Assembly: GCA_902728285.1 (NCBI GenBank)
Contig: CACVBU010001154.1
Location: 620,001 to 684,000, forward strand
Source: Clytia hemisphaerica
Taxonomy: Eukaryota; Cnidaria; Hydrozoa; Leptothecata; Clytiidae
Reading direction: 5' to 3'
Length of the DNA stretch: 64,000 bases
The translations under genes were made by a program, and so were the position numbers. Positions 3,904 to 64,000 of this stretch are shown here, piece after piece. The notes under the pieces were generated by a model. That model had not been told where the DNA came from. It did no database searches and was given only the letters and a program-made list of their open reading frames with translations. How positions within the stretch are numbered: the first letter of the stretch is position 1; each line of letters opens with the position of its first letter.

Positions 3904-5462
3904 TTACTCCGAAATAGCACGTTCAATGAAAAATAATACATTTCCATATAAATCAATTCCATGTGAATGAGAGGGTGCTAAAACATTGATATCAACTGAC
4001 AGTCGAGCCTGTTGGGCAGCTGTCAAAGGCGCTTCAATCCTAGGCAAAACAACTTTTATATCATTTGGCTCGTGCATGGGGTTATCAATGAAGAATTCTT
4101 CAAGTGCAGTATTTTCGTCTCTAGCGAAGAGATTCGTCATTGCTGTGGAATTCGAATCTTGATGACGAATACTCTCAGCAATCCAAAGTTGCATCGGTGT
4201 TTTGTTGTTCTCGGTTCGAATGCGATGGCAATTGTGTGCATTTCTCCACGTGTCTAAATCGCTCTGGATTCTTGGTAAATATGTGTATTGTAACGCATAG
4301 AGATGAATCGGATTTTCCAAATCCAGGATCCCGTGATCTTCCATATGATAAAAAATCTTGTAATACTTTTCAACTACTTTCGTATAAACATCACGCCAAA
4401 GGCGCTCGATCCTCTGGTTATGAACCGAACGACCTGAAATTTGGCTTCCTCTTTCTTCACCATTAAAGTACTCCATCAAAGATCGAACGTGTACAAACTC
4501 TGATCCTTTATCTAGACGCAAACGACTTGGAATACCATATTCTTTGATTCCTTCGACAAAAAAGTTCAGTGCCGTGCTTGCGAGATTATCGGCAGAGACT
4601 TTCAACATCGAAACAAGTCTTGAAAAACCATCAATGCATCCATGTGTGACAAAATTCCATCTAAAAATCGAAATTCTCGAAAATTTTAGCTTCTCTCTGG
4701 CGCAAAAACTCGTCCCCAGCCCTCAAAAATTAAAATTTCAAAAAGCGGAAATCAGACATTTGCGGAAGGAACAAGCGTGTCAAATTTCTAGGCTCTCTAG
4801 GCTACCCCAAAGTTTTATGTAAATACAAACACTCACAAACCAACAGACAGTCATACGAATAGGAATTCTGAGATTCTAGGTCAAGAATATTGTTGTGTTG
4901 AGAATGGCTCCGACGTAGAAAATGTTCAAACGACTCTTATCCCTATAACTCAATACTTTAATAGATGCAAATTTCCCACTTGAAAATCTAATTAAAGAGT
5001 GTGTCAACTGTACCTAATCAATTTGTGATGAGTGTCAATATGCCATAGAGAGTTTGGGGTTGGAACACGATACTGCCGTCTTTTGATTGTTTGAGCCCAT
5101 CTCATAGCAACACCTTCTGGGTCAACTTGGCGCAACAACTCTCTACACTTGTCTCGTTGTAATATAATTCCTTGTCCCTTTAAGTGACTCAATACCTCTT
5201 CCGATCCTGAGTTGGGAAATTGTTTATTTATTTCCGTAATCTTTTCTTTCAACTGATCGTGTGTCAATCGACTGTACAATTTTCTTCCCGAGTCTAGGCC
5301 AAATCTTTTGCAAGCATTATGCACAGTATTGGGATGTACAACTTTTCCAAGTAAACCATTTTTGGCTATTTCGACGATTGTGTATCTTTGGGAAAGAAGC
5401 AACTTTAACCGTTCAGAGTCAATTATGAGTCTTTTGTTGTTCCGATTTCCAACATTTTCCAT
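3904..5462 (-). CDS. Intron-containing DDE integrase-domain protein
   Basis: Two exons on the minus strand: 5462-5014 and 4660-3904, separated by a 353 bp intron (4661-5013). The intron has a GTACAG donor and a TTTTTAG acceptor. Splicing joins an Arg codon across the intron and gives a 401-residue frame. Exon 1 carries a helical N-terminal region resembling transposase DNA-binding segments and ends in LWHIDTHHKLIR, with the first catalytic Asp. Exon 2 continues through CIDGFSR, RLDKGSEF (second Asp) and SVHNQRIERLWRDV (catalytic Glu), followed by LPRIQSDLDTW and TPMQLWI. This is the retroviral-type integrase core seen in a large family of cnidarian and fish proteins of transposon origin. No reverse transcriptase, terminal repeat or other element gene adjoins it. 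It may therefore be a solo or domesticated integrase, or a decayed element retaining only this gene. All three catalytic residues are present. Confidence 0.82.
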
Positions 5463-6151
5463 GTTATTTCTTATAATTTTATTTGCCTATAAAACGTGAT
5501 AATAGAAATAAAACAAACTATCAATTGAGCAAAGAGTATACAGGGTCTCTGAATCAAGAGCAAAAGGCAAAGGCTTATCTACTAAAATATAATAAGTGAA
5601 AAGTCACTACAGGATTGTAGTTATTTATTTGCCGTAGATGCGAAAGAAGTCGATACTTTCAATTTATCATTAACAATTTTCATTTTACACCGTGGATAAA
5701 TTTTGCCCTATCAAATAAAATTACGTTATAAACAACTCAAGTCTATCATCTCTATCAAGCAACAAAACTTTTTGTGAATTTCGCGAGTTTTAAATTTTGA
5801 TCAAATGCGAAAAAAGTTTATTTCGCGAAAAATAATTATCAATAAGCTCATTCAATAAAGTTTATTTTCTTGGAAAAGAAAATTTTTCAAATTTAGGACG
5901 TTAATGTTACGACTTAAACCTGTAGCTGTACATAACCCGATCCAGAAAAAATCTTTAAGCGTATAATTCTTATTTGGTTGTAAAATAACCTCTTGCGTAA
6001 CATCGCTAATACACCTTTTCGACCGTAGCCGCCGAGTGCGCGTATTTTTCAAGAGATTTGTGCAATGCAGGAGTGAAAAGGTTGTAAACCTCTGCATTCA
6101 ACGAGCAAAAACATTATTCGCGGCACCCGTGCGACTACGGTCAAAAAAGGT
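5463..6151. other. Intergenic between integrase gene and HECT-type gene
   Basis: No gene is supported. A short inverted pair, cgaccgtag (about 6019) and ctacggtc (about 6134), brackets GC-richer sequence. Short open frames at 5852-6097 and 6049-6252 have no recognisable features. Confidence 0.45.
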
Positions 6152-6274
6152 GTGACAATGGATAACATTTTAAACGAAGAACTTAATTTTGATATATCAT
6201 AAATATTAAATCCACGTAAATATTTACGATATATCAAAATGAAGTTCTTCATTTAAAACATTATCCATTGTCAC
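6152..6274. repeat. Inverted repeat overlapping the 3' end of the HECT-type gene
   Basis: gtgacaatggataacatttt at 6152 is mirrored by its reverse complement (with one mismatch) ending at 6274. The arms are about 56 bp with few mismatches and a central spacer of about 10 bp. The right arm contains the last codons and stop of the minus-strand HECT frame, so the gene end has been duplicated in inverted orientation. Its transcript would fold into a hairpin straddling the stop codon. Confidence 0.85.
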
Positions 6275-7228
6275 CACTAACTCATCCTCTGCCCAGTGAT
6301 TTGGAAAAGTTACCGAAAATGAACAAGTGTGCACTTTCGGAACTTTGCTCTCCAAATCGTCAAAAAAAAAAAAAAACTTTCTCCAGTGGAAGAATATCAC
6401 TTCCTGTCAAGAGTTTCAACAGCTTAACCAGTTTTTCATCAATTAATCCTTCGACATACTTTTTCCACGCTTTCCATGTTGATGTTAAAGCGTTCAACGC
6501 ATTGGTACTGAAACATTCCAAAAGTTTAGCTGGGGTGATGATTTTGTTCCTTTCGATAATTTCGTTGATCTTTGTCATCGAATCAAAATTATTTGGAAGG
6601 ATGAGCTGCTTAAATACTTCCCTCATCGATGTGATGGCAAACCATGGACGCTGGATTAGATCAGCGTGTGCAATGTCATGCAGAACATCTGGCATCGCAG
6701 CTACTGCCATTGGATTTGCAGGACATTCACAACGTGTCATCATGTCTATCAGGCCATCCATGTTTTGCCCATCAAACAGCTCACCCCTCAAATCAAAAAG
6801 TGCCTGTTGAAGATCATTTCCAGTCGGTGTCTGTCCAAAGAATACCTGTTGTATACTGACTTTGGACAGACGTGCTGGAAAGCAGTTGTAAATAAGTCCA
6901 TAGGCCAGAACACGGGCAATCACCTTCCATTTTTCTGAGCTGAACCCAAACCGAAAAGTTATGCATTTGGTCTTTTCGGGACCCTCGCAACATTCAGTAT
7001 AAAACTCTTTGATAAATAAGGTTAAAACCTCTTTGGTCACTCCGTCCCCAACACCTCTTTCAACATTCCCGTCTTTGTCTATTATTCGAAAATAATAATA
7101 ACTTTCGGTAAATATTTTGTTTGTTTGGAAATGACGCAACATATCATGGAAAACATGATTACGCCGAATTAGGCAATCGACGTACTCTACACCGAAGTCA
7201 AGTTGACGGTTGCGGAGAATGATTCGAA
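6224..7228 (-). CDS. Terminal exon: HECT-like domain, frame broken at a T15 run
   Basis: The acceptor ttttttag precedes TTCGAATC at 7228, in phase with the 7744-7803 exon. The frame runs uninterrupted to 6360 and includes the HECT N-lobe signature GVGDGVTKEVLTLFIKEF and, toward the end, LLTGSDILPLEKV. A run of 15 A on the + strand (6362-6376) then produces a premature stop. Reading one base differently after it, the frame resumes as DDLESKVPKVHTCSFSV, carrying the HTC catalytic Cys of the HECT C-lobe, and ends at TAA 6226-6224. Fourteen Ts would keep the frame. The likeliest explanations are a homopolymer sequencing error or length polymorphism; a true frameshift that removes the active site is the alternative. 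Confidence 0.8.
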
Positions 7229-10200
7229 CTAAAAAAGACAAAAAATCAAACTATAGAATGCTACTTCCTATCTATTTTCAGCAATTAACAGTGGCTAATA
7301 TATATAACGAGGCTCCTCTAGCGATCTGCGTGAACACATGAATTGCACTTTTTTCTGTAGTGAATACGTGAAATGGAATCAATGTGTGAAAGGCGATGTT
7401 TGCGTGAACGTAAAACAAGACTTTTTCAATATTTCATACCTTTGGTGAACCCCCCCTCCCCCAAGCGGTGACCCAAATCACACGATCATCCGAATATTCA
7501 GTCTCTTTCACGTATAAAAAATGACCCAATCACGCCAACACGCAAAAAGCTATGGGATTTGCACAAGTTTGAAGAAGTGTATGATTTTGCACAAAATCTA
7601 CATTTTAGATAACAGAATTATAACCAAACAAACCTTATGAGTTAATTCCAGGGGCAGGGGGAGGGGCAGCAAAATGGTCCTAAACTTTTAAAGCTTAATT
7701 GAAATACTTTTTCATTAATTGTGGAAAATAAATGTCAACTTACCAGGGTTCGTTAAAGTTTCAGTTTGAGTAGCTGATGGCAAGCGTACCACGGAGTTCA
7801 ATGCTAAAATAAAAAAATAATAGTCATATTTAAAATCCTACAGTGGATATATCGTTTTAAAAAGCCGTTTACACTCAATTTATCAATATATATAGCCCAA
7901 ATCAATAGGAAATTGAGAATACGGTATTGTATGAATGTATTAAAATGTACTAGCCGGTACCCGGCGTCGCACGCCGGTTTAGCTGTTTGCTGAACGCATT
8001 TAAAGTGCTTTGAGATGTTGGGAAGGTGGCTTAAACACGATGAAATCAAAATTAAAGGGAAGAATTCTCTTCAAAGTTTGACTCTATCCCTCCCGGGTGA
8101 CGTATCTTTTAACCATATTTTGAAAAAGATTTTTGTGGCAAAAATGATCAGAAAACAGAAAAGGCGATACCGGCGACCAGCGACGTCCGAGACGGCTCTG
8201 CAATTAGATTTTTTTTCTAGCTAAGCTCCCGTTATATTTGCCGTAGTTCTTGATGTTTAGGAAAACTTCAAGATAAGCGGTGTGAAATAATAGACATGAC
8301 ACGCGATTCGTCGAAAAAAAGGCAGCCCGGGGGAGATGGTACTTAGGCAAGAGAAGGGTATGGGTATGTGCCGGTCTTAAGGGTGCCTTTCTTGAAACAT
8401 TGGAAAATCAAACTTCAGTCCCACTAAGAATTGGAAAAATAGGAAAATTTCAACTTTTTGCCCCCAGAAAGATAGAAATTTGGTCAAATTAGTTCCAAAA
8501 AGTGAAGTAAAATTCACACATTTTCCCTTGTTTCTTCTCCACCTTATTCTGCTAAGGGTCCGAGGGGCAGGGCCGAAAGTCAGCTCGCAACCATAGCCCC
8601 CCCCTGGAAGATAGATAGCGCAATTTTATGTTTCTTTTTATAATATAACTTCGTCATAACTTCAATAATTTTTCAAATTCAACAATGACTTAGATTTACA
8701 GCAAAATAATTATCGACATACATGTTTAAAGGTCCCTTTTTACGAAGAAAGAATTCTAGTTTTTACCGCCTTTTGAATGTATTTTTAATGTTGCTGTGTT
8801 GTTCTAACAAACTTGTTATGTGATTCCTGTGTTTTATTTTATATTTGTTCTTTTCTTTAACATAATAGATTCTTTTTAAAAGATTTTCTTTTGTTTTGAA
8901 AAGAATTCGAATGTCTCAAATCAAATAAGGTCGTTAAAGTCTGTCCAGATATAATTGGCAGTGGAAACAAGAATGCCTGTAACTTTTGATAGTCAAATAT
9001 GATTATAGAAATTTTTGGCCCAGCGCTAAGCGTAGGCCTTTCATTTGCAATTTTCTGTCTGTTGTCTGTCCGTTGTCCGTGTGTCACTTTAGGCAGAAAC
9101 GGCGCTTAAAACCAGTACCACACTTTTTAATTTTGCCGTCTGGAGAGGGAAAAGCTTGTTAAAGTCGGATACTGGCTATAAAAGATATATTTTCTGATTC
9201 CGCGCTCCTTTAAAACAATTTTCAAAACAAAACAAGATGGCGGTCGAAGCGAGGAGGTTAATTCATACTTTCTTGAACATTTTCTTTGCTTTAGTGGTCA
9301 AGAGACTTTCAAACCAAAGAAATTTTGTAATTGTTTTTCTTTATAAACCTTTTTCAACATTCTGCCATATCTTATAGTCTTGGCTCAAGTTTTCATAAAG
9401 TTTTATGAGTAAAAATTCTACCTTGAATCACTTTCATTTTTAGTTTCTTGTTTTCAAAAAGACTTTATAAATTTTTAGGAAATAATGGCTTCTGATATAG
9501 AAATAAATAAACTGAAATGCAGCTGATGTGTAAGATTGAATAAGATTAAAACTTTTTTCTTGATGCTACATAAGAAAACAGTCACTTCTGGATCTGTCGC
9601 TGTTCAGGCTGTTAACAAAACCACGGTGGTCAGTGGTGGGACGTGGTATGATTTTCAAACTCAACACATAATTATTTCAAGTAAACTGATTCTGGAATTT
9701 GGTAATGGACACTAAAATGGAGCCCATATGTGTAAATTGGAACAAGATTGGAACTTTTTCCATGATGCTACGCGTGAAAATGGTTATTTCTGGATCTGTC
9801 TCGTTTGGTGATTGGTGGCTTGATTTGTCAAACTCGACACATAATTATTTCAAATAAGTTGATTATGGAATCATGTTAATGGAGACTGAAATGCAGCTCA
9901 TGTGTAAATTTGAAGAAGATTGGGACTTTTTTCATGATTCTACACGTATATTAAATAAAATAGTCATTTCTGGATCTGTCGCATTAAACGATCGGTGGCT
10001 TGATTTTTCAAACTCGACTCACATATTTATTGGCCCAGCCGCGCAGCGCAAGTGGGCCTTTAAAAAGCAACTGAACGAAAAGATTTTGGCTTTGTCGGAG
10101 CCTATGCGCACAATAGATTAACAAGTCCAGTAGTCCAGGCTAAACCAGCGGCCGATTTAGAATTTTTGCCTCGCCTACCCGCACGATGTTTGACCTACTC

Positions 10201-13200
10201 TTATATTGGATTGAATTGGTTGTAAAGTCAAATTTCATTCTCTTTATGGCAAAGTATTTTTTAGGTCAGGGAGCAAGTGAAGTGAGAGCATTTGGATGTT
10301 GGAGTTTTATATTTCAAGCTTGACAGAGACTTTTTTCAAGTAAACTTATGTTGTAATTCATTAAATGATAATAAAATGCAGCTCATGTGTAAATTTGAAT
10401 AAGTTTGGAATGTTTTTCATGATGCTACCCGTGAAGATGGTTTGTTTGGATTTTATCGCTCTAAACGGTCGGTGGCTGGATTTTTTAAACCTGACAGAGA
10501 ATTTTTCAAGTAAATTTATGCTGTAACTCATTAAAGGATACTAAAATGCAGCTAAAGTGTAAATTTGAATAAGTTTGGAATGTTCTTCATGTTCCTACCC
10601 GTGAAAATGGTCAATTTTGGATTTATTACTCTAAATAAACTAAAACGGTCGGTGGTTGGATTTTTCAAACCTGACAGAGAATTTTTTCAAGTAAACTTAC
10701 GCTGTAACTCATTAAAGGATACTAAAATACAGCTCATGTGTAAATTTGAATAAGTTTGGAATGTTTTTCATGATGCAACCCGTGAAAATGGACAATTTTG
10801 GATCTATTGCTCTAAACAGTCGGTGGCTGGATTTTTCAAACCTGACAGAGAATTTTTTCAAGTAAACTTATGTTGTAATTCATTAAAGGATACTAAAATA
10901 CAGCTCATGTGTAAATTTGAATAAGTTTGGAATGTTTTTCATGATGCTACGGGTTAAATCGATATTTCTGAACTTTGACGGTCAACATTTGACATTTGAA
11001 GTTTGTGAATTTATTTAAACCGATTTTTTCTTTCATACTAGTAACAAAAACATAAAGCAAATCTATTATATACATATATTGCGTATCATTTATCATTGCT
11101 GACCTTCCCCTGACCTTCCAGCGCAGCTGGTTTCTTTCTTTTCATTTTTCACTTTTTTAACTTTTTGAATGTTCAATGTTCCGTATTTCAATCTCTGCCG
11201 AAAATGTGCATTAGGATTCTAAGACTCGATGTTTCCTTTAAACCCTAAAATTGCAAAAATACGATTCCGCAAACATTGATTCTCTCAAGGTACCCGTTAC
11301 AAACGACATTTGGTTATTGCCACGTCAGCTGGGCCTTCACGCCGCTTCGGCTTCTTGTTTTTGCTTGTTTTAGAGAATCAAAAGCGCTATATTTGAATGT
11401 ATTTTTGGTTGAAAAATTCGTGATTTTTAGCGGTTAAATTTGCGATTGCAAAAATTGTGCTTTTTTCTACTAATGCTATAACGTTCATTTTTACACCAGT
11501 GGTAGTTCAACCTTAGGTGAAGAAGTCTGTTAAATTTCAAAGCAAACAGAAAAGTCCCTCGGAAGATACGGGACCCAAAATACCCCTTGGTAGCACTTTT
11601 CTGTGTAATATCAAATATCCAACTTATTACTAAAAACGGGGGTTATGTTATCTTTTTTGAACAGTGCAATTAAAAGTTAGAAAATGTTAAGTGTTGGTGC
11701 ATTGGTATTATTGGTATCATTGGTATCATTGATTATTTCGAAACGAAGTGAAATCACAGTATAATTGTTTTTATTGAAAAGAAAAGCATGAACTTATGAT
11801 ATTGTCCTTGTTATTTTTAAGTCATTAAAGAACTTTGCTAATTCCCAAAACACTAAACACAGTTTGGCTATGAGGTCATTAAAGAGATCGTAAAATGTGT
11901 TATGGTCGAAAAACTGTTTTATAAATCATATCACTACCCCCGTTTTTAGTAATAAGTTGGAGATTTGATATTTCACAGAAAAGTGCTACCAAGGAGTATT
12001 TCGGGTCCCATATCTTACGAAGGACTTTTCTGTTTGGCTTGAAATTTAACAATCCTCTTAACCTAAGTTTGAACTACCACTGGTGTAAAAATGAGCGTTA
12101 TAGCATTAGTAGAAAAAAAGCACAATTTTTGCAATCGCAAATTTAACCGCTAAAAATCGCGAATTGATCAACCAAAAATACATTCAAATATAGCGCTTTT
12201 GATTCTCTAAAAAAAGCAAAAAAATTTCCGTAATCATATTTGACTATCAAAAGTTACAGGCATTCTTGTTTCCACTGCCAATTATATCTGGACAGACTTT
12301 AATTACTTTACATTCGAAAACATAAAACAAAAAAAAAGAAAGAAAAAAAAAGAAAAAGTCTAATTTATCAATCAAAACAAAGTCTTTATAAAACGGCGCG
12401 AATCTGATTTAACACATTTGTGGAGCAAGAAGCAAAAGTCATCTTTTAAAAGAGCAAAAATATTGCGTACGGAGAAAACGAAAGTAGAACACACAGAAAA
12501 CAAAATGACATACACAGTACCAGTAATAATATATAGATTAATCAAATTGAGACTCTAGTTCAAATCTAAAGAACATTTTAACGTGGTTGTATCTGCTATT
12601 TTCAAAATTCTGGACTTCCTGTCAACATTGTGATAATACCCATATCCTAAATGAGGCAACCCAGGCAATTTACGTGATGGCGTGATTAGAATTTTGAGCG
12701 TGGTCGCGATTTGGCAAAACTTTGGAGCGTGATGCGTGATTTGAAATTTTTTTTGCATATAGTCAAAATTGCGGGATGAGCTGCGATTTGGCGATTTTTC
12801 GTGAGTTGCGATCGACACTGAATTTGAATCCACTTTTTTTGTAATTTTTGCTGTTTTTTAAATGTCTCCATTTTACTCATTATTTATGAACATGTCCTTA
12901 TATTTTAAAGCTTCGATTGACTTTTTTTAAGTTTTCCTTCTGAAATACCAAATGTATACTGTGTGCTTTTAAAGTTGTTTTTCATTGTTTCAATAGCCTT
13001 ATGTTCATTGTTTATTATCCATCACTCCTTTTTGCATCTATATACCCTTTTATGTATTTTCTAGTTATAAATTCAATTGCTGAATATTTTTTCTCCCAAG
13101 AATAATGAAAATTTATTGTTATTTGTTTGCTGATATAAAAGATAGGAAGGGTAACATCTCGATTGATTGTTAGGAAAAAACTCTAATCTGATAGGACGCA

Positions 13201-16200
13201 CCAAAACGAAATAAGATACAGATACAAGCCAATTTTTTACTGTTCCGGACCACATTCAGTTACAGAGGAAATATTTATCCACATCTTTGTGGCTCTTGTT
13301 TTATTCATGAATTTTGAATTGAGGCTGAAATTATTATTCACTTCTTAAGCTTTCAGACTTGTTCAGTTTTGTGATCTGTTGGCTTATTTTTTGCTCATTT
13401 CTATTTGGTCCTAATTAAGTTTTTAGGGTTTTAGCATTCTAAACATCATTCTTGTATAAAAAATAAAATTTCCTAAAAAGCACTCTAAAGTGGTGACATT
13501 TAGTGACAGCTACGGCTAGTAAAATCAACTTACTTGAAACAGGGATCGCCGGATGCTGAATTGCTGCTACGGATGAGTGAGATGCTAAAAATGACAAAGA
13601 TATTACATTTTAAAAAGCCGTTTACGGTCAATATCTAGCTCAAATCTATAGAATATTAAGAACACAGTATTGTATGACTGTTTATATATCAACATTCTAA
13701 AATCAACTTACTTGAAACAGGGATCGCCGGATTCTGAATTGCTGCTACGGATGAGTGAGATGCTAAAAATGACAAAGATATTACATTTTAAAAAGCCGTT
13801 TACGGTCAATATCTAGCTCAAATCTATAGAATATTAAGAGCACGGTATACTATGACTGTTTATATATCAACATTCTAAAACCAACTTACTTGAAACAGGG
13901 ATCGCCGGATGCTGAATTGCTGCTACGGATGAGTGAGATGCTAAAATGACAAAGATATTACATTTTAAAAAGCCGTTTACGGTCAATATCTAGTTCAAAT
14001 CTATAGAGTATTAAGAACACGGTATTGTATGACTGTTTGTATATAAACATTCTAAAATCAACTTACTTGAAACAGGGATCGCCGGATGCTGAATTGCTGC
14101 TACGGATGAGTGAGATGCTAAAAATGACAAAGGTATTATATTTTAAAAAGCCGTTTACGGTCAATATCTAGCTCAAATCTATAGAATATTAAGAACACAG
14201 TATTGTATGACTGTTTATATATCAACATTCTAAAACCAACTTACTTGAAACAGGGATCGCCGGATGCTGAATTGCTGCTACGGATGAGTGAGATGCTAAA
14301 AATGACAAAGGTATTACATTTTAAAAAGCCGTTTACGGTCAATATCTAGCTCAAATCTATAGAATATTAAGAACACGGTATTGTATGACTGTTTGTATAC
14401 CAACATTCTAAAACCAACTTACTTGAAACAGGGATCGCCGGATGCTGAATTGCTGCTACGGATGAGTGAGATGCTAAAAATGACAAAGGTATTATATTTT
14501 AAAAAGCCGTTTACGGTCAATATCTAGCTCAAATCTATAGAATATTAAGAACACTGTATTCTATGACTGTTTATATATCAACATTCTAAAATCAACTTAC
14601 TTGAAACAGGGATCTCCGGATGCCGAATTGCTGCTACGGATGAGTGAGATGCTAAAATGACAAAGGTATTATATTTAAAAAGCCGTTTACGGTCGATATC
14701 TAGCTCAAATCTATAGAATATTAAGAACACGGTATTCTATGACTGTTTATATATCAACATTCTAAAATCAACTTACTTGAAACAGGGATCTCCGGATGCC
14801 GAATCGCTGCTACGGATGAGTGAGATGCTAAAAATGACAAAGGTATTATATTTTAAAAAGCCGTTTACGGTCGATATCTAGCTCAAATCTATAGAATATT
14901 AAGAACACGGTATTCTATGACTGTTTATATATCAACATTCTAAAATCAACTTACTTGAAACAGGGATCTCCGGATGCCGAATCGCTGCTACGGATGAGTG
15001 AGATGCTAAAAATGACAAAGGTATTACATTTTAAAAAGCCGTTTACGGTCAATATCTAGCTCAAATCTATAGAATATTAAGAACACGGTATTCTATGACT
15101 GTTTATATATCAACATTCTAAAATCAACTTACTTGAAACAGGGATCTCCGGGTGCCGAATTGCTGCTACGGATGAGTGAGATGCTAAAAATGACAAAGGT
15201 ATTACATTTTAAAAAGCCGTTTACGGTCAATATCTAGCTCAAATCTATAGAATATTAAGAACACGGTATTGTATGACTGTTTGTATACAAACATTCTAAA
15301 ACCAACTTACTTGAAACAGGGATCGTCGGGGCTTGATTTTTTAAAATTATAACTCCACTGTATTTTGAAGCTTTAATATCATTCGGTGTTTGGACATCAA
15401 ACAGCTCCATTTTCTTCTGCTGATTTAGTTTGAACATTCCAAAATGGTCCACTAAGTTCCGACACACTTCTTTTAACCGGTCCTGGAACTGTCTTTCACT
15501 TAATGCCAGTGAAATTGACCAAAACTTAGATCGTTTGGTTGCGATGGAAAAACATTCAGCAGGAAAACCTGAAATTTAAAAGTACGCTAATGATTTTTAA
15601 GAGATAATGCCAAATAAAATTTAACAGTTAACATATAAACAATACAATTAGCGATACTACAAATCGGATTTTGTACTCAAAAACGGAGAACACTCTGGTT
15701 CTAGGTCTAGTTCTAACAGTCCTCGTTGACTGACGTTGGTCTTAACCTTTATTAAAAAATATATGAATTTAGGTCTAACTCAACAAAAGAAAATTGTTTA
15801 AACTTTACGATAATTACGATACGGTGAGATTTGTTTTCTAAATGAAAAGATCGGGCTTTAATACAATCTCAGGTAAATTTGAATCGTCATAAAAGCTATT
15901 TCTATTCATATTTCTCCTTCTCCTTCTCCTTCTCCTTCAGTTTCATTTTTAAATTTTTCAAATTTTATTTCTTTTCAACAAGGCAAAACTTATCTAATTG
16001 AAAAGCTGTACGAAAAATATTTGAGAAGATTGAAAAACATGTATCTTAATTACCATATCCACTATTCATGTGCTCAACCAAAATTGGATCCGACGTTCCA
16101 TCCTTCAAAACGTTAAATCTTGGTATTTTACTGGCGTTTTCTGGTAAATGATATATCTTAATTTTTACTGTGGTTGGTTCCGGGCCTCTCTTTCTCTTCA

Positions 16201-19200
16201 CTTGGGGCCTTGGTACTGCGTATAAATGTCTAAGGTTTGCTGCTGTACTCGTACATGCTTCTAACCTACTAGCAAAACTTTCATCTAGAGAAAAACAAGA
16301 AGTTAAAGAATTGACACATATACTAAAACGATCTAAGGATTTAATCCCCTCTAAGGAATTTATTGACATAATGATGCGAGGGTGCATCACACGGCGGTCT
16401 TCAACCGGATTCAAAATATCAAAATATTCCAGTTTTCGGAAACGGATTAGATAACTAATCAAAACTTTTTGATTTATCCTTACTGCATTTAGGATATCGT
16501 TCTGCAGTAAAAAATAATTATTATTCTTAGTGACATTCTTACTTTTTCGCCAACTTCATCATGAATATTCTTATAAAGTATATTCTTATTCAAAAAAGAG
16601 TGTACATGATGCAAGGGTGCTCAAAAATGATTCAATAAGAGAATACTACAAAGTATTTGTAATTAGACACACGGTAGAATAAAATGCCCGGCTTTTTGTA
16701 ACTATTTTTAGCTAGTTTATCAAAAAGTACCCAACTCGAAACAAGGCAAACAGATTTTTCAAAGCACTCAACGGTTTCTTCACCGCTAGTTCAGTAAAAA
16801 GTAAGAGACAGCATGGGAACTGAATTTTGACCAGGGGTCTGGAGGTTTTCGAGGGAAAGGTTTTATCAATCTATGGCCGCAAAATCTATAAGTTTATTTT
16901 TCCAAAAGAAAGAGAAGTGAATGTTTTAATGTGCTGTAATGAATTTTAAGTAATAAAATTTACTCGCAGTAATTGACAATGCTTTATTCTCGTTTTTTTT
17001 TGCATTAAGAGTGTAAAGTAATTTTTTTAAAGTAGAGAATACATTTTGAGCATGGTCAACAAAAGTAATAATAAGCAAAATAGCGCTTTTGGACGTCACT
17101 GTGATGGTATGTGAATGATGACCATGTCATAAAGTTCAAAATTTCAATGTCTGATAAAAGCTACTCGGCTCAAATTATGACACTCATACACATTGCTCGG
17201 TCTTTTTTTTACATCTTTAAATCAAATGTTAAAGCTTTTTTACTACGAGATTTTCGCCAAGGGGGATCTGACTTAAAAGTGATTCAGGGGTTCGGGGTAT
17301 CGCATTTAGAAAAGAATTCTAAGCTGACATATCTAGCTAAATTCTTTCTATTATTATTCTTTACTGAAATCTATAGAACAAGAAGAAGATTTTGTATGAC
17401 TGTTTGCAATCAAAGTTCTAAAATAAACTTACTAGAAACAGTGTTTCTACAAAGTTAAATCAAAACAAAAATGGTAGAGTAGAGCTGCAGGGGAGCTGCG
17501 TAGTTGTATTTTAATGACCAGCCAGGTCATTCATTTGAGGGCTATGCATGTCAGCCTCCACTGATGCAAGTTACCCGATCTCACGGGAGCATAGTGAAGC
17601 CAAAACTACAGGATAAGAGTATGCAAACATGGATATAGCTAGTTGTGTTTTTGGCTTTGTTTAACCGTTTAACACTCACACTCATAACTGATTACAATCT
17701 TCTGGTATACAAAAGAACAAAAAGTGTCAATTCAAAAAAATTATCGGCTGAATGGGGGTACCTAACTCAAAGCAATTTCCCAAGGGGACCTAACTCCTGG
17801 GGGCACCATCCTTCAATGGGGGCACCTGAAAAGTGGCTGTTTGGAATCAAAGTTCTGAAATCAACTTACTTAAAACACTGTTCGTTGAATTCTGACTTGT
17901 TTCTGTCTGCAAGGGTACCACGGATGATTGAGATCCTAAAATGACAATTTAAACATTACGTTTAAAAAAGCAGTTTACAGTCACTATCTAGCTCAAATCT
18001 ATACAAAACTAAGAAGAGGGTTTTGTATGACTGTTTGGAATCAAAGTTCTAAAATCAACTTACTTGAAACAGTGTTCATTGAATTCTGACTTGTTTGTGC
18101 TGGCACATGTACCACGGATGATTGAGATGCTAAAATGACAAAAACATTAAGTTTTAAAAAGATGTTTACGGTCAATATATCTAGCTCAAATCTATAGAAC
18201 ATTAAGAAGACGATTTTATATGACTGTTTGGAATCAAAGTTCTAAAATCAACTTACTTGAAACACTGTTCGTTGAATTCTGACTTGTTTCTGCTGGCAAG
18301 CGTACCACGGATGATCGAGATCCTAAAATGACAAAAACATTACGTTTTAAAAAGCAGTTTACGGTCAACACATCATGCTTAAATCTGTATAGAACATTAG
18401 GAACAAGTTATTGTATGACTGTACGTAGATTAATATTCTTTAAGATCAACTTACTTGAAACACTGTTCGTTGAATTCTGACTTGTTTCTGCTGGCAAGCG
18501 TACCACGGATGATTGAGATCCTAAAATGACAAAAACATTACGTTTTAAAAAGCAGTTTACGGTCAACACATCATGCTTAAATAGAACATTAGGAACAAGT
18601 TATTGTATGACTGTACGTAGATTAATATTCTTTAAGATCAACTTACTTGAAACACTGTTCGTTGAATTCTGACTTGTTTCTGCTGGCAAGCGTACCACGG
18701 ATGATTGAGATCCTAAAATGACAAAAACATTACGTTTTAAAAAGCAGTTTACGGTCAACACATCATGCTTAAATCTGTATAGAACATTAGGAACAAGTTA
18801 TTGTATGACTGTACGTAGATTAATATTCTTTAAGATCAACTTACTTGAAACACTGTTCGTTGAATTCTGACTTGTTTCTGCTGGCAAGCGTACCACGGAT
18901 GATTGAGATCCTAAAATAACAAAAACATTACGTTTTAAAAAGCAGTTTACGGTCAACACATCATGCTTAAATCTATATGGAACATTAGGAACACGTTATT
19001 GTATGACTGTACGTAGATTAATATTCTCTAAGATCAACTTACTTGAAACAGGATTCATTGTATTTTGAATTGCTGCTGGCAAGCGTACCACGGATGGACG
19101 AGATCCTTAAATGTCAAAAACATTACGTTTTAAAAAGCAGTTTACAGTCACTATCTAGCTCAAATCTATATAAAACTAAGAAGAGGGTTTTGTATGACTG

Positions 19201-21819
19201 TTTGTAATCAAAGTTCTAAAATCAACTTACTTGAAACACTGTTCGTTGAATTCTGACTTGTTTCTGCTGGCAAGCGTACCACGGATGATTGAGATCCTAA
19301 AATGACAAAAACATTACGTTTTAAAAAGCAGTTTACGGTCAACACATCATGCTTAAATCTATATAGAACATTAGGAACACGATGACTGTACGTAGATTAA
19401 TATTCTTTAAGATCAACTTACTTGAAACAGGATTCGTTGTATTTTGAATCGCTGCTGGCAAGCGTACCACGGATGACCGAGATCCTTAAAGGGGAATTAA
19501 CGTTTCAAATTTGTTAACAAACAAATGACAGATTCAAATAGAGCTCATTGAGACGATTTCAAATATATATGGTGTATAGGGCTTTATCTTCTACATCGGG
19601 AATAAGTGTTGTTTGAAAATACCCTTGTGTTGCTATGGTTACGAAAAATGTGACGTAGGGTGCGAACTGCGTTTCTCTTTTTTATAAGGGAACAGTGGTG
19701 AATGATGATTTAAAATGCAGTTTTTGAGTTTCTTTTTTACCGTGAGAGAATTTATTGCACCTTTAGAATACTAACTACATTCTCCCAGTTTTATGTCTTC
19801 AACGTTCTGCTATAATTACTCTAAAAAAGATTCATTTCTATCGTTTTATCGCTTTTACAACCAAATTGAGTGTAACAGTGAGAATAGTTGGAGCGCACTT
19901 TACGTCACAAAATACAGAGGGGGAGTTTTTCTCCATTGTAGAGTCAAAATTGTGAGAAATTAAAGATTAAATAACTCAATGAATAAAAGACATTTTGAAG
20001 TGGTTGTTTTTTTGTTCCATCACATTTTTCTTCCTCTTTAATGTTTCGAAAAAAAATTTCAGGGTTAATTCGCCTTTAAATGTCAAAAACATTACGTTTT
20101 AAAAAGCAGTTTACGGTCAACACATCATGCTTAAATCTATAAAGAACATTAGGAACAAGTTATTGTATGACTGTACGTAGATTAATATTCTTTAAGATCA
20201 ACTTACTTGAAACACTGTTCGTTGAATTCTGACTTGTTTCTGCTGGCAAGCGTACCACGGATGATTGAGATCCTAAAATAACAAAAACATTACGTTTTAA
20301 AAAGCAGTTTACGGTCAACACATCATGCTTAAATCTATATAGAACATTAGGAACACGATGACTGTACGTAGATTAATGTTCTTTAAGATCAACTTACTTG
20401 AAACAGGATTCATTGTATTTTGAATTGCTGCTGGCAAGCGTACCACGGATGAACGAGATCCGTAAATGTCAAAAACATTACGTTTTAAAAAATCCGTTTA
20501 CATTAGATATATCTATATAACTACTTTAATCGTAGAAATTTTAGCGAGACTAATTTTAGCGTGTATTAGCGAGTCAGGAAAATCTTGATTTTTTGTGGAT
20601 TTATTTTAGCGAATCAAGATTTCAAAAAATTTTGCGGGGATAAATTTTAGCGAATACTCGTATTACACTATTGACTGAATTCGTTTTCTAGCATTTCTTT
20701 GCACTGAAACCCTTCCTATTGATAAAAATGTATCAAGGCAATATAACTAGAAATTTCGCGCGCATAAATTTTAGCGATCTGTCGATTCGGCGTGTTTTAG
20801 CGAGATTTATTTTAGGGAAAATAGGGAAAACTCGCTAAAATGCTAAAATTAATCTCGCTAAAATTTCTATGATTAAAGTAGCTGAAATATGTAAAAAAAA
20901 AAGAAGTAATTTCAATTCGGTATGATCTCTTGCATAAAAGTTTTGATTCAACTTACTTCGAACAGAGTTCATAGGTCGTTCATTTGGATTGATATTTGGA
21001 AATCGTATCACAAGATTTGATGCTAAAAGAAAAAGATATGACAATGAAACTCTATTTTAAAGTCAAAGTCGACTATCTAGCTACCTTAACAGGCGCGTAG
21101 ACTGGGATGGCGCAAAATGTGCGTTGGAGAGCATACTTTTTACGATGCATCAATTATCTATTTACATTTTCAATGAATAATGACATAAAAGTTTTTGCAC
21201 TCCTACACAAATTTTGCTCCTTCACTGGCTACGCGCCTGCCTTAAGGGAAGATTTCGCGGGAAAAAACTTTCGTGTTATTAAATTACGTTGTTTGGATCT
21301 TGAAAATAAAAAAATTCGTGGAAGTTAATTTCGCTGTTAAGACCAAGGCAAGTGTTATAAGAATCAACTTACTTCTAGCAGGGCGTGACGGTATATCTAC
21401 GAAAGCAGCCGGTTCAGGGGCCTCCGTGGAATCCATGCTTTGTGCTAATAAGCAAAAAATAAATTTTGATTGCGAACGTCAAAAAGGAAATCTGATTTGT
21501 CAAGACTTTAAAAGCTACCCCAAAATTTTATAGCATTTTTTTTGAGTCTCCAAGCATAAACAGCAGGGAAACAGAGTATAAATCATTTATATTTCCCTGT
21601 CAACGCATTCGTCATTCTATTAAAACATTGCACGTTTTTTAATGTTTTGAATTTTCACGAAAAAATAAACCTAAAATTCTTATAAAAGATTCTTTTAAAA
21701 GATTTTGATATAAATAATGTGTACAAAGAACCAACTTGTGAAAAGTTACCGTCTAATCTATTCACCATTTGGCGGAACATAAAGCCAGGTCTTCTTTGAT
21801 TTTGTCTAGATCGCGACAT
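6224..21819 (-). CDS. HECT-type E3 ubiquitin ligase-like gene with amplified phase-1 micro-exons
   Basis: Reconstructed from splice signals and reading phase. Minus-strand exons are: 21820-21750 (ATG at 21819), 21444-21373, 21022-20957; the 63/66 bp array (20460-20398, 20272-20207, 19484-19422, 19296-19231, 19105-19043, 18910-18845, 18712-18647, 18520-18455, 18322-18257, 18129-18064, 17935-17870); 16284-16054, 15568-15311; ten 51 bp exons from 15183 down to 13534; 7803-7744; and 7228-6224. Every junction is phase 1, and donors are mostly GTAAGT. If all exons are used the product is about 995 residues. It has a short basic N terminus, a long Ser/Thr/Pro-rich repeat linker, a unique middle segment and a C-terminal HECT-like domain (N-lobe DGVTKEVLTLF, C-lobe catalytic HTC). 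HECT enzymes accept ubiquitin from an E2 on that Cys and pass it to substrates. Two caveats apply: a poly-T run shifts the frame in the last exon, and one micro-exon has lost its acceptor AG. The exon model is inference from sequence without transcripts. Confidence 0.78.
7744..7803 (-). CDS. 60 bp linker exon of the HECT-type gene
   Basis: Acceptor ttattttag, 60 bp exon, donor GGTAAGTTG. In phase 1 it reads LNSVVRLPSATQTETLTNPG. The NSVVRLP core matches the micro-exons 10 kb upstream, so it is a diverged member of the same exon family and joins the repeat linker to the HECT exon. Confidence 0.8.
7952..7979 (-). mobile_element. Helitron-like 3' terminus (CTAG after a GC-rich hairpin)
   Basis: On the minus strand the hairpin ccggcgtgcgacgccgg (7979-7963) is followed about seven bases later by CTAG (7955-7952) and then a T. 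This matches the usual Helitron 3' end: a short hairpin, a CTRR end and insertion between A and T. No Rep/helicase is nearby and the 5' end was not located. It lies in the large intron upstream of the 7744-7803 exon. Confidence 0.5.
8300..8607. repeat. Dispersed repeat, copy 1 (second copy inverted at 41848-42160)
   Basis: Aligns by eye to the reverse complement of 41848-42160 through shared words such as gtatgtgccg, cttaagggt, tcccactaag, aaatttggtcaaa and cagctcgcaacc. A short piece also occurs at 35712-35760. No coding potential. Family unknown. Confidence 0.7.
9510..10950. repeat. Degenerate tandem repeat, period about 170-180 bp (with gaps)
   Basis: The word aaatgcagctcatgtgtaaatttgaa, or close variants, recurs near 9510, 9712, 9886, 10370, 10540, 10719 and 10892. 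The last copies are closest to each other. The larger gap at 9886-10370 holds unrelated sequence beginning tggcccagccgcgcagcgc. Short open frames here come from repeat copies and are not genes. Confidence 0.8.
11368..12212. repeat. Long inverted repeat with about 275 bp arms
   Basis: The left arm 11368-11642 and right arm 11937-12212 are inverted copies at roughly 90% or better by eye. The termini are ttttagagaatcaaaagcgc and its complement; the inner ends are taaaaacggggg / cccccgttttta. The 294 bp spacer is AT-rich and includes a tandem ttggtatca stretch (11704-11732). Structure suggests a foldback-type or long-TIR non-autonomous transposon nested in the 8889-12333 element. Confidence 0.9.
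12334..13533. other. Intron sequence; nothing further recognised
   Basis: A-rich runs at 12320-12360, then ordinary AT-rich intron. Open frames at 12555-12880 and 13073-13255 overlap each other or lack any domain and have no matching splice context. They are not called as genes. Confidence 0.45.
13534..15310 (-). repeat. Ten tandem units of 178 bp, each a 51 bp phase-1 exon plus intron
   Basis: Exons lie at 13534-13584, 13712-13762, 13890-13940, 14067-14117, 14245-14295, 14423-14473, 14601-14651, 14777-14827, 14955-15005 and 15133-15183, so the unit is 176-178 bp. Each has an attttag acceptor and a GTAAGTTG donor. Each exon is exactly 17 codons, enters and leaves in phase 1, and encodes SHSSVAAIQHPAIPVS or a close variant (Q/R, H/N and A/E changes). 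None contains a stop. Copies 7-10 (higher coordinates) share RHPEI; copies 1-6 have QHPAI or QNPAI. Introns are conserved too, so duplication is recent and conservation alone does not prove selection; the constant frame and length do support coding use. Confidence 0.88.
15311..15568 (-). CDS. 258 bp unique exon of the HECT-type gene
   Basis: Acceptor aaatttcag, donor GTAAGTTGG, 258 bp, phase 1 at both ends. It encodes FPAECFSIATKRSKFWSISL, then an amphipathic region (ERQFQDRLKEVCRNLVDHFG), and ends ...APTIPVS, matching the end of the 51 bp exons that follow. This suggests the 51 bp array arose next to, and recombined with, the end of this exon. The segment probably forms a folded domain of the protein. 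The middle domains of related HECT-type proteins are poorly characterised, and I assign no function. Confidence 0.78.
15569..16053. other. Intron between the two unique exons
   Basis: AT-rich. Contains a short ctccttctcctt run near 15917-15938. No other feature seen. Confidence 0.5.
16054..16284 (-). CDS. 231 bp unique exon of the HECT-type gene
   Basis: Acceptor cttgtttttctctag, donor GGTAATTAAG, 231 bp, phase 1 at both ends. It encodes ESFASRLEACTSTAANLRHL, a basic patch RPQVKRKRG (possible nuclear localisation signal), then TVKIKIYHLPENASKIP and DPILVEHMNSGY, which joins in frame to the 258 bp exon. The acceptor comes from the junction sequence. An open frame continues upstream to about 16462, so a longer exon cannot be excluded. 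Confidence 0.75.
16285..17869. other. Intron with a truncated micro-exon repeat unit
   Basis: Around 17320-17440 the sequence matches the intron half of the flanking repeat units (ctagctaaattcttt...actgaaatctatagaac...gtttgcaatcaaagttctaaaat...aacttactagaaacagtgttt). It breaks off inside the exon part, leaving a dead partial copy at the edge of the array. The rest is unremarkable. Confidence 0.6.
17870..20460 (-). repeat. Eleven tandem units of about 195 bp, each a 63 or 66 bp phase-1 exon
   Basis: The 66 bp exons (22 codons) at 17870, 18064, 18257, 18455, 18647, 18845, 19231 and 20207 encode SSVVRLPAETSQNSTNSVS or variants. The 63 bp exons (21 codons) at 19043, 19422 and 20398 encode SSVVRLPAAIQNTMNPVS. 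The two types alternate at the upstream (high-coordinate) end and give way to 66 bp copies only. Donors are GTAAGTTG; acceptors are ttttag or tttaag. All are stop-free and phase 1. The 20398-20460 copy has lost its acceptor: tttacgg replaces tttaagg. The peptide SSVVRLPAAIQ also explains the 51 bp exons (SSVAAIQ) by a four-codon deletion. Confidence 0.88.
19490..20075. mobile_element. 586 bp TTAA-flanked MITE inside the micro-exon array
   Basis: The terminal inverted repeats are AGGGGAATTAAC (19490) and GTTAATTCGCCT (ending 20075). The target duplication is TTAA at 19486-19489 and 20076-20079. Neighbouring array units give the empty site (gatccttaaatgtcaaaaac), which confirms the boundaries. 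No transposase. TTAA target choice is typical of piggyBac-type and some other superfamilies. Confidence 0.88.
20520..20883. mobile_element. MITE with about 40 bp terminal inverted repeats
   Basis: ctactttaatcgtagaaatt at 20521 is mirrored by aatttctatgattaaagtag ending at 20881. Inner sequence is rich in ttttagcgag words. It sits in the intron between the 20398 and 20957 exons. Target duplication unclear. Confidence 0.78.
20957..21022 (-). CDS. 66 bp exon of the HECT-type gene (diverged micro-exon)
   Basis: Acceptor cttttag, donor GTAAGTTG, 22 codons, phase 1. Encodes SNLVIRFPNINPNERPMNSVR, which parallels the SSVVRLP...NSVS pattern of the array exons. It is the most diverged upstream member of the exon family and plausibly close to the ancestral unit. 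Confidence 0.78.
21373..21444 (-). CDS. 72 bp exon near the N terminus of the HECT-type gene
   Basis: Acceptor cttattag, donor GTAAGTTGA, 72 bp, phase 1. Encodes QSMDSTEAPEPAAFVDIPSR, an acidic/Pro-rich stretch. It contains an ATG (21436-21434) that could serve as an alternative start if the 21750-21820 exon is not used. Confidence 0.72.
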
Positions 21820-23696: not shown

Positions 23697-23783
23697 ATTT
23701 CATATCATTGAAATCTCCGCCCAATCTGATATGGGTACGCCCTACTCTTATTATGACTGAAGGTCATAATTTCAACTCCCTTT
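23697..23783. repeat. DIRS inverted terminal repeat, 3' copy
   Basis: 87 bp identical to the reverse complement of 28021-28107. It overlaps the last codons and stop of the recombinase frame (stop at 23764-23766). Confidence 0.93.
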
Positions 23784-26700
23784 GTTTGAAGCTCTTATAT
23801 ATTGCTCCCTGGAACTTACTTCCCTGAAGCGAAAAGGATTTGTTATAGAACTTCTGGAACGTACTTTCGTTCGACCAATAAGCTGTCTTCATTACATCCT
23901 CTACGGATGCCCCCTTCAATACCGCTTTTGATGTAGATGCAGACCTGGTAGAATGACCCTTAAAAACACTCGAATCGATACCTGCATCTCCTATGACTGT
24001 CTTGAGCCACCTAGATATTGTACTAACTGCCACTGCTTTGTGCGGTTTGACTGTGGCAATGAGTAGTTTTGTCTCTGACCCCCTGATAGCTTTAGTCATC
24101 TCTAAGTACTCCTCAATTGTTTTACACACACATAAACTCAGAACCTCATCAAAAGCATAGAAGGTCACCTCTTGATGAGGATGCCCTGGTTTCTGAACCT
24201 TAGTAGGTTGTGGCAGGGTGAACCTATGGAACTTGTTCGTCTTAACCGCAAACTGTAAATCAAGCTGATGCATTTCGGATGCCCTGGATGCTGACGTCAA
24301 GGCCAACAGCATTGATAACTTATGAGTGAGATTACTCAAATCACCCTTCACGGGCAACTTCTCCAAATAATTTAACACCTTATCCACATCCCAAATGAAA
24401 GCGTACTTTGGCATTGGCGGTCTCTCGTTGTACATCCCTTTGAGTAACGAAGATACCCGAGGATGATCACCAACTTTACATCCCTCAACTGTACCATGGA
24501 ACGCAGATATAGCTGATCTGTAGCCTGCTATAGTATTGTACTGAATGCCTGTTCTAAATTGTTCGGTCAAAAACTGAAGGATTGCCGCTAAAGAACTTCT
24601 AAAGGGATCAATCTTCCTCTCACTACACCAGCCACAAAACTTTCTCCAGGCCGATTCATAATGAGACCTTGTTCCCTTTCTTCTGGCTTGCAGGATAAGA
24701 CTTGCAGATTCTTCAGAAATTCCCTCTGATAACAAATTTTTCCTGATACTGTCCATGCCACCAATTGTAGCGAGTTGTTTAGCACTAGAGGATGACATTC
24801 CCCTTTCTGGTTTTTCAACAACCCCTGAAACTTTGGGAGTAGAATTGGATTTGCCACTGACATCTGCAGAAGACAAGGGTACCAAGGCTGAGATTGCCAG
24901 GCTGGAGTTATTATCAACAGATCTGCTTGCTCCAACATTACCTTCCTTAATACCCTTCCTATCAGGGAGAAAGGAGGAAAAGCATAACCCTTTATGCTGG
25001 ACCAGTTCTGTTGAAAGGCGTCTGTTCCCTGACTCTTGAAATCTGTCCTCCAAGAGAAGAATCTCTCCAACTGGGTTGTCACTCTTGACGCAAACAGATC
25101 GACCTCTGGTCGCCCCTTTTTCCAACACAACTTCTGGAAGACCCCTGGATTCAGCTTCCAGTCGCTCCTGTCTAGCCGCCTGGACTCTTTGTCGGCCAGT
25201 CCATTCAGTTTCCCCGGGAGGTACTCTACAGTAATTGTGATCTCCCTCTCTAACAGAAAGCTCCACAACTCCTTTGCTATCTGAGACATCTCCCAGTTGG
25301 TTGTACCCCCCATCTTTAGTATGTATGACAGTGCAGCAATGTTGTCCATCTGAAGATGGACAGCTGTTGGGTGTAAGTTTTCTGCAAAAATCAATGTCGC
25401 CATGTATGCCCCTTTCAACTCTAGAATGTTGATATGCTTCTGAGTCTCCTCCTCTGACCAAAGTCCCCCAACTGCTTGGCCCTGGCACACTGCCCCCCAA
25501 CCTGTTTTGGAGGCATCCGACTGAATGGTCATCTGGGGTGGTTCCTGCAATAAGCTTCTTCCGTTCACCTTCCCTAGATTTCTGATCCACCAGTTTAGTT
25601 CCTCCTTTGCCCCCTGACTCAAAGGAACTAACTGCTCGTAAGACATTCCCTTGGAAAGACCCTGGATCACTTGACGCTGAGTCTCTCTGTACCTCAAAGG
25701 AGCTTGAAGCACAGCCATTGAAGTTGATGAGAAAATTCCCACTATCTTTGCCAGTTTCCTGAGAGAGACCATTGACTCGAAGAGAAGGGACTGGCACTGT
25801 TCTGCTATTTTCTGAACCTTTCCTGATGTGAGGGATACTTTTAATTGGACTGAATCGATTTCGAAGCCCAAGAACTCTATCTTTTGACATGGGCCCAACA
25901 CAGATTTCTTGAAATTCACTACAAACCCTAGGTTTCTGAGAAGATAAATCAAAGTATCTCTCAACATCTCTAGCTCTTCCCTGGACTGAGCCATTATTAA
26001 GATGTCGTCCAGATATATTATCACTCTCCCATTCAATCTCCGAATGATTGTAATTGGCACTTTCATCAGCTTGGTGAAAACATAAGGGGCTGGAGCCAGC
26101 CCAAAACATAGGCATAAAAATTGATAAAACCTCTCTTTCCATTCGAAGCATACATAATTCTGCGATTCCTTGCGCAATGGGACTACAAAGTATGCGTCCT
26201 TGAGGTCTACTTTGCACATGAAATCCCCTCTCACCAAAATATCCTTCAACATATACAGACCTTCCATTTTGAAGTGGTTCAAGGCAATGTGAGAGTTGAC
26301 TTTTTTCAGATTTATCACAGGTCTCTGCCCTGAGTCTTTTTTCTCTACCAGAAAAATTGAGCTGAAGTATCTGTCCTGGCTTGATTGCACCTCCTTTATA
26401 GCCCCTTTCTCTCTCAAGGTCTCTATCTCTAAATCTACAAGACCTACCTTCTCCTTGCTCATTGGTATAGGATTTGGCACTTTCGTTTGCTGAGGCTTGG
26501 TTAAAAATGGTACCTGGTAACCTAACACTGTATCCAGGATAAACCGATCGCTGGAAATTAATTCCCAGTTCTTCAGGAAGAACCTTAACCTCCCTGCAAG
26601 TGGAAAATTCCCCCCTAGATCTGGGCTCAGCAAGGACTCCACCATTGGGTGCACCCTGGAAAAGTCCTTTAAAACTGGAAGATTTACAGAAGGCAAAGGA

Positions 26701-27645: not shown

Positions 27646-28020
27646 TGTACCAGTCTATCTCCTCATTTCATGAAAACAAGAACTTACTGACCTAATCACT
27701 ATTCTGTTCCAGCACTCTAGCCTCTGCCTAACAGGGCAATGAGTATAGCTTCTGGCTTTAACCTCCGCCTAGCAGGGTATAGCTCTTGCACCTCGATACT
27801 GTAACCTTCTCCTGCCTGGCAAGAGAGATGACTATTATGAGAAAATACTTGTATTTCACATGAAAATATCGAGTGCATTTACGTAACTGTATGTCGAGGA
27901 AGTAATGATTGCAAAATAAGTCATAAAACACTAAAAAACCACAAGATATTTGTGGATTTTTTCTATAAACAAATTACTTACTGATTCAATACGTCTGACA
28001 TACTTCGCGAGTAGAACTAA

Positions 28021-28107
28021 AAAGGGAGTTGAAATTATGACCTTCAGTCATAATAAGAGTAGGGCGTACCCATATCAGATTGGGCGGAGATTTCAATGAT
28101 ATGAAAT
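28021..28107. repeat. DIRS inverted terminal repeat, 5' copy
   Basis: Exact reverse complement of 23697-23783. The Gag start is 376 bp inward, leaving a 5' leader at 27646-28020. The sequence beyond 28107 (aaccaatatg) is host. Confidence 0.93.
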
Positions 28108-47710: not shown

Positions 47711-48235
47711 GTTAATGCGCCATTTTTGATGTTTTTGTTGTCTTTTTATTAAAGATGGTAGATTTTTTTTGAGCACAAGTCACCCAAGTCAATCGAAAAC
47801 ATCAAAATTGGTCAAAATTGCTGAACAGGCAAGAAACTAGTTCACCTAGTTCCAACGAGTTTAAACATTTGAAGAAATTAAGAAGATTATGTCTACGTTA
47901 AGCTGATATCATTTTCATTGTAGCAATAAAAGGTAAGTTTACTGATAGGTACTAAGTACTTCTCTTTTCTTTTCGATAAGTGTTTTAAAACTAAAAAAAC
48001 TCAAATTAAGTCGTTTTATGGTAGACATAGCCTGGAGATCCATGCTATGATTTCTTATTCTATATTACTGATGGCGAAATATATAGCATGGTATGGGCTG
48101 AGAGTTTGAATTTTCCAGATCCTAAACGGTTGAAAACATAGCCAATCAAATAATGTTATCTTTTGCTGGTTACACTTTCTTAGAGAAAGTGCAACTTCCG
48201 AAATTTGCTTTTTCTTTTACGTAGTAAGTGAGCGA
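47711..48235. other. Intergenic up to the truncated LINE
   Basis: No supported feature except a catgctatgat...atatagcatgg near-inverted pair at 48040-48095. Confidence 0.4.
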
Positions 48236-63232: not shown

Positions 63233-64000
63233 GTAAGTTTTCTATCTCAAGCTGTCACAAAACATCAAAACAACGTACATATGATTAAAGTCCAAACAAT
63301 AAATACATATTTTAAGGTTGTGACCACTGACCTTTGTATACCCTGGACCAAGTTTCTCAATCCTGGCTAAGCAAAAGATCTTTCAGAGTTTTTTGAAAAG
63401 TGGTACCCTAATGGCGGCACTATTCAATAGCGGTGTAAATACATTGAGAGCGAAAAACTTTTGATGATTAATTTTTAATACTGCCATAGCTTCTTGACGG
63501 GTACCAATTCAAAAAAAAACTTTGATCAAAGATGGCGGATATAGGATAGGGATGTATAAAGGTCAGTGGTTGTGATGTCTGATCCTACTTTTTAAAATAA
63601 CTGGAGTATCACCTTCCTTGTCTAATTTTTCAAATCACATTTACTCCTTATCTAGCATTGCTTCTTTTGAGGGAAATTTATACAACAGGTCACATATTCC
63701 ACCTAAAAATTAAATAATAAGAATAAGCAACAAAAAAAAGAACCAAATCTTTGATCATATGTGGATATTTAAATCAACTTACATGAAGTTGTAAACACAC
63801 CAATCAATCAAAATATTCGTGGTAAAAGTTATGTCTCATCTCTTGACACTTTGAATTCTCACAACATTTCTCTTAAAACTTGAAGAAGGCTTTGCTTTTG
63901 ACAGCTAGAAAGATAAAGAAACTAGTGCCACGTATCATTATATCATTATTGTACCATATCAAAGATCACATTCTTAGATTTTTAAATTCAACTTTAAGAA
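63233..64000. other. Next SMARCA2/4 intron, incomplete at the window edge
   Basis: Begins GTAAGTTTTC. A short degenerate inverted pair tgaccactgacctttgtata / ataaaggtcagtggttgtga (63319-63340, 63557-63578) brackets about 240 bp, a likely MITE. No exon before the end. Confidence 0.55.

Follow-up and report, generated by a model that had tools for sequence, protein, structure and literature searches.

Two tandem arrays of frame-neutral short exons in a probable HECT-like gene of Clytia hemisphaerica

Along the minus strand of the window, by which we mean the whole stretch of 64,000 nucleotides of Clytia hemisphaerica DNA that was analyzed, we have found 26 exons that join end to end with a terminal HECT-like exon between approximately 21.8 and 6.2 kb (Table 1). 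A GT donor follows every one of the 26 upstream exons and an AG acceptor precedes 25 of them, the first exon having been taken from ATG 21819; the HECT-like exon is preceded by AG as well. Once joined, the frame stays open for 640 codons, from that ATG into the HECT-like exon. Four exons of the chain are unique and the remaining 22 are related short exons of 51, 60, 63 or 66 nt, each with AG...GT borders. These repeat exons provide 1290 of the 1921 coding bases ahead of the HECT exon, which adds about 1000. Short exons whose lengths are divisible by three dominate this part of the coding region, as in the micro-exon genes of schistosomes. The word microexon is usually kept for exons shorter than these of 51-66 nt. 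The N-terminal residues, MSRSRQNQRRPG, are unlike a signal peptide when judged by eye.

Table 1. Exons and associated features of the gene, in order along the minus strand.
Feature	Positions	Strand	Basis or remark
First coding exon, ends in phase 1	21750..21819	-	ATG 21819 as presumed start codon, GT donor
Unique exon, 72 nt, both ends phase 1	21373..21444	-	Splice borders, frame
Diverged single repeat exon, 66 nt, SNLVIRFPNINPNERPMNSVR	20957..21022	-	Borders, frame, alignment
Array B copy, 63 nt, acceptor broken (ACG for AG)	20398..20460	-	Splice-border reading, alignment
Array B, ten intact copies (8 x 66 nt, 2 x 63 nt), core SSVVRLP	17870..20272	-	Borders, frame
Insertion, TTAA-flanked, inverted ends, 586 bp	19490..20075	.	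At acceptor of copy 19484-19422, AG retained
Unique middle exon M1, 231 nt, both ends phase 1	16054..16284	-	Borders, frame
Unique middle exon M2, 258 nt; 3' end and next intron array A-like	15311..15568	-	Borders, alignment
Array A, ten copies of 51 nt, core SSVAAIQ or SSVAAIR	13534..15183	-	Borders, frame
Diverged single repeat exon, 60 nt, LNSVVRLPSATQTETLTNP	7744..7803	-	Borders, frame; also in P0001
HECT-like exon	6224..7228	-	Pfam HECT 21.6 bits; frame stops at 15-T run

An earlier note on this DNA had placed every exon junction in phase 1 and had described 23 frame-neutral copies of 51, 60, 63 and 66 nt with common core peptides, forming two arrays plus single copies at 7744 and 20957. 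The lengths, the core peptides and the arrangement are as it described them. Phase 1 is found at the end of all 26 exons that precede the HECT exon, and the copies, being symmetric in this phase, are frame-neutral. The total of 23 is right when 20460-20398 is counted, but this copy has lost its acceptor and just 22 have AG...GT borders. Phase 1 is the sole phase open in all the intact copies, phases 0 or 2 being open in many single copies. As a background we examined 12 unrelated AG(45-75 nt)GTAAG intervals, drawn from both strands of 28-64 kb and from the plus strand of 1-6 kb, and three of them were symmetric and open in phase 1. This indicates that a single copy proves little by itself, and open frames alone were rejected as a proof of coding because those 3/12 intervals show the same properties. 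The weight of the case for the predicted exon chain is carried by its succession of different exon types.

The Pfam HECT score of the window protein is below the curated cut-off of 23.9 bits, and for this reason we have used the wording HECT-like. Six proteins were scanned with Pfam and three matched HECT, just P0002 (24.8) passing the cut-off. Pfam gave no match for the spliced chain ending before the T run, nor for the last piece alone, and tblastn of the HECT part against phages gave no match. The nearest sequences among the 8000 best candidates scored, P0002-P0006, are unnamed proteins with 24-30% identity. The 15-T run, located at 6362-6376, interrupts the HECT frame ahead of the presumed catalytic cysteine; beyond it the frame reads VPKVHTC and a stop codon (6226-6224), out of frame in the present assembly. 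In the relatives the candidate catalytic-site motifs are AHTC (P0002 and P0005), RTC (P0003) and RRC (P0004). The HECT end that the earlier note had assigned to a minus-strand gene stands as HECT-like, though weak in each single test, and the product would be a ubiquitin ligase. Across the stop codon of this exon there is an inverted repeat of 56 bp with an 11-nt loop (6152-6274, 91% complementary), in which the last codons of the gene itself are copied as a foldback. As RNA it has a folding energy of -69.9 kcal/mol (z -14.5) and 0 of 200 shuffles were equally stable.

A protein search retrieved P0001, a public predicted uncharacterized protein of Clytia hemisphaerica that is near-identical. 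Its last 288 residues are the HECT exon translation as far as the stop at the T15 run, and ahead of the HECT part it carries four units of array A plus the 7744 unit, with no array B units. The first residues of P0001 match the array intron at 14422-14296; on the minus strand of 5-23 kb the corresponding DNA has a single occurrence, at 14406. Downstream of this point there are five copies of array A, so that one is missing from the P0001 model. Support for the chain comes from this public gene model, which joins some copies to the HECT exon; since it starts in an array intron and lacks array B, it supports just the 3' part. A structure model of P0001 gave a pLDDT of 31.7. Among the 8000 best candidates scored in the protein searches, the repeats appeared in no protein besides P0001 and the middle exons had no relative. 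P0001 shows how such genes can be mis-modelled, with a start within an array intron and an end at a homopolymer.

Several other elements are found in the window. Directly downstream of the HECT exon, the minus strand carries at 3907-5486 an integrase gene (Pfam rva_4) that is divided between two open frames. A HECT-bearing transposon was considered and rejected, as no inverted arms were found around the integrase and the HECT exon among the 25 longest of 118 pairs in 1-30000. No paper among the listed matches had HECT together with IS3EU, and HECT is absent from the text of PMC10045372. Tandem arrays are located downstream of the gene at 692-1260 (units of 98 or 197 bp) and 1664-2479 (units of 176 bp). 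A 3.4-kb element (8926-12310) with 91-nt inverted arms (95%) lies in the long intron that separates array A from the 7744 exon; it contains tandem repeats and, nested within it, a foldback (11358-12222). At 23697-28107, reverse transcriptase and tyrosine-recombinase frames lie between 87-nt inverted arms that are 100% complementary, an element that we take to be DIRS-like. The plus strand has a frame with a reverse transcriptase domain at 48134-49669 (120.8 bits) and, at 60657-63367, frames that presumably resemble pieces of a SMARCA4/Brahma-type gene; Pfam gave no match for the two pieces scanned.

The ten copies of array A present three peptide variants. Their exon corresponds approximately to the 63-nt type minus 12 nt (an in-frame loss of VRLP), 38 of the remaining 51 bases being identical in a comparison aligned by hand. 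The 140 bases downstream of the end of M2 have a mean identity of 0.914 to array A. Array B has a total of 11 copies at 20460-17870, of which ten are intact (eight with 66 nt, two with 63 nt) and one, of 63 nt, is broken; the peptide is identical in 5 of the 8 intact 66-nt copies. At its upstream end the 63- and 66-nt copies alternate, as if they had been duplicated in pairs. The insertion in array B is a putative mobile element. Besides, a degenerate copy-like stretch at 17433-17495 retains a GTAAG donor and has no phase with an open frame; it is possibly a dead array B unit. The repeat introns of both arrays are mostly of 125-132 nt, with one of 722 nt.

The introns of arrays A and B are homologous, with a divergence of 0.174 between arrays. 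Divergence rises with distance along array A (r=0.53, permutation p=0.0002) and along array B (r=0.29, permutation p=0.044). Homologous exons plus their introns are repeated head to tail within one gene, as is found in tandem duplication. That neighbouring units are more alike and that introns travel with exons is the pattern predicted by unequal crossing-over, and from it we infer that the arrays would be the outcome of ordinary unequal crossing-over plus mobile-element traffic. The earlier proposal of an undescribed exon-amplification system is not supported; the pattern is that of exons duplicated in tandem in the way that unequal crossing-over produces, for which there are published precedents.

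We have compared exons and introns within and between the arrays. In the intron-only comparison, computed without the single 722-nt intron, exons and introns diverge alike within array B (0.103 and 0.104) and within array A (0.036 and 0.039), while between array A and array B the exon value (0.275) is larger than that of the intron. Global alignments within array B gave 90% identity for the exon and 81-82% for the intron flanks, but part of those flanks consists of insertions and of DNA beyond the array, and for this reason we prefer the equal divergence of the intron-only comparison. Codon variants counted against the commonest copy, junction codons omitted, were 3 replacement and 2 silent in array A, 10 and 0 in the 66-nt type, and 2 and 2 in the 63-nt type (broken copy included); the possible single changes for this comparison were 99 to 40 and 131 to 48. 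With equal exon and intron divergence and no surplus of silent changes, no purifying selection on the peptide is detectable within the arrays. Other data speak for a coding constraint. The donor GTAAGTTG is unchanged in 24/24 sequences (21 array copies, the two single copies and M2), and 0 of the next 22 columns are invariant; at the acceptor the G is present in 23/23 and the A in 22/23. Indel spans are multiples of three in 4/4 cases in exons vs 2/9 in introns (Fisher 0.021), a test with small numbers and dependent on the alignment. The frame and the splice donors look constrained, and we conclude that what appears to matter is length, frame and splicing signals, a constraint on the peptide being undetectable.

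The composition agrees with the Ser/Thr/Pro-rich linker that had been proposed, S+T+P being 0.44 in array B and 0.41 in array A. Adding N and Q, the fraction rises to 0.61 in array B and to 0.45 in array A. The two arrays account for 388 residues of the 640-residue region and have no aromatic residues; the middle region (M1 plus M2) is basic, with a net charge of +10. In our reading the arrays may form a flexible spacer on either side of this middle region, and the linker would be disordered. If translated, copy number would set the length of the spacer.

Putting these data together, we consider it quite probable that the locus is one gene, that its HECT-like product is divergent and has at the N-terminus a long linker of low complexity, and that unequal crossing-over multiplied a phase-1 exon along with its intron. 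Judging from the genomic sequence, the most likely product is HECT-like, with a linker whose copy number varies, and the intact copies would enter one message. One short phase-1-symmetric exon and its intron would have been multiplied at two places in the gene, and the two amplification sites would flank the unique two-exon middle region, one before and one after. Frame neutrality would let copies be gained, lost, mutated or skipped with the reading frame kept, so that the length of the linker could drift under little selection on the peptide.

A decaying gene, once HECT-like, in which both the frame break and the loss of the acceptor would be genuine and the arrays would by now be expanding and contracting as neutral DNA, seems unlikely. 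The break at the T15 run, present also in the identical P0001 record, may reflect an assembly error or a polymorphism, long homopolymers being frequent sites of both, and the 640-codon chain and the HECT exon ahead of the run are open. One acceptor has been lost in 23 copies, but the donors are invariant in 24/24. Exon and intron diverge alike, as expected under decay, and yet the exon indels keep the frame in 4/4 cases.

Regulated diversity, by which differential inclusion of array exons would yield linkers of varied length and sequence that tune the ligase, with a logic like that of the schistosome micro-exon genes, is in our opinion quite improbable. The frame-neutral design would suit it, but the copies are nearly alike in peptide and skipping would alter mostly the length; P0001 lacks one array A copy out of the five that follow its start, which would favour regulated inclusion but may be a modelling artefact among near-identical copies.

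We give very little credit to a multivalent array, in which each array B unit would be a short linear motif, e.g., SUMO-binding, and copy number would set binding strength. Array B has 10 psi-psi-x-psi cores (VVRL, VVHV, VVPL) vs a shuffle mean of 1.6 and a maximum of 6 in 2000 shuffles, but this is a single repeat counted ten times, and one core in each of the single copies (21022 and 7803) is set against none in array A. The cores lie beside serines, the loose form that the consulted part of PMC12751080 describes for SUMO-interacting motifs; typically, according to the same part, these motifs have an acidic or phosphorylated flank, whereas array B is net basic (+13), and purifying selection on the peptide is not visible. 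It would be equally surprising to find that the repeats are short linear binding motifs (SSVVRLP, e.g., SUMO-interacting) and that the arrays act as a valency dial of the HECT ligase, one that depends on copy number, perhaps also on splicing, and varies between individuals, with the exon outpacing the intron between arrays. The larger exon divergence between arrays (0.275, 0.174) also weighs against the linker reading preferred above, for plain drift would not call for it.

Returning to the reading of a linker multiplied by unequal crossing-over, there are similar cases in other animals. In the piccolo b gene of teleost fish, one symmetric exon is found in tandem in 8 to 16 copies depending on the species, and the amplification was attributed to unequal crossovers between homologous sequences, according to the excerpts available of PMC3484663. 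Both genes share a symmetric exon amplified in tandem with copies that vary in length. The piccolo b exon, as presented in those excerpts, is a frame 0 zinc-finger exon with constrained ends, and its zebrafish exon structure is backed by cDNA or RNA-seq, whereas the Clytia gene has phase 1 exons of 51-66 nt in two arrays, shows no sign of peptide constraint and is known from genomic sequence. The micro-exon genes of Schistosoma also have many short exons, mostly multiples of three, and tandemly repeated exons encoding 81-base repeats appear in a 1988 title cited there (PMC10526429, in part). They code, in the portion of that paper at hand, for secreted proteins with signal peptides and have long introns; in Clytia the repeat introns are mostly of 125-132 nt and the repeats are ahead of a HECT-like domain. 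Exon duplication is common in eukaryotes and affects at least 4% of vertebrate genes, as stated in the sections seen of PMC12343006; as in the duplications described there, full exons are duplicated within one gene, although the copy number in Clytia is unusually high and the host is a cnidarian. With the animal HECT ligases the protein has in common a HECT-like C-terminal domain, and it was placed in none of the subfamilies listed in the partial text of PMC2837046. No report of this gene was found among the listed matches, which come mostly from outside the subscription literature.

The phenomenon is of a known kind, repeated exon duplication, and what is notable is the copy number and the presence of two arrays in one gene. 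It is a clean, high-copy case of amplified exons in a laboratory animal from outside the Bilateria, and a single locus displays nearly identical copies, one that has lost its acceptor, and an insertion that lies at another acceptor. This locus could serve to gauge the turnover rate of frame-neutral exons.
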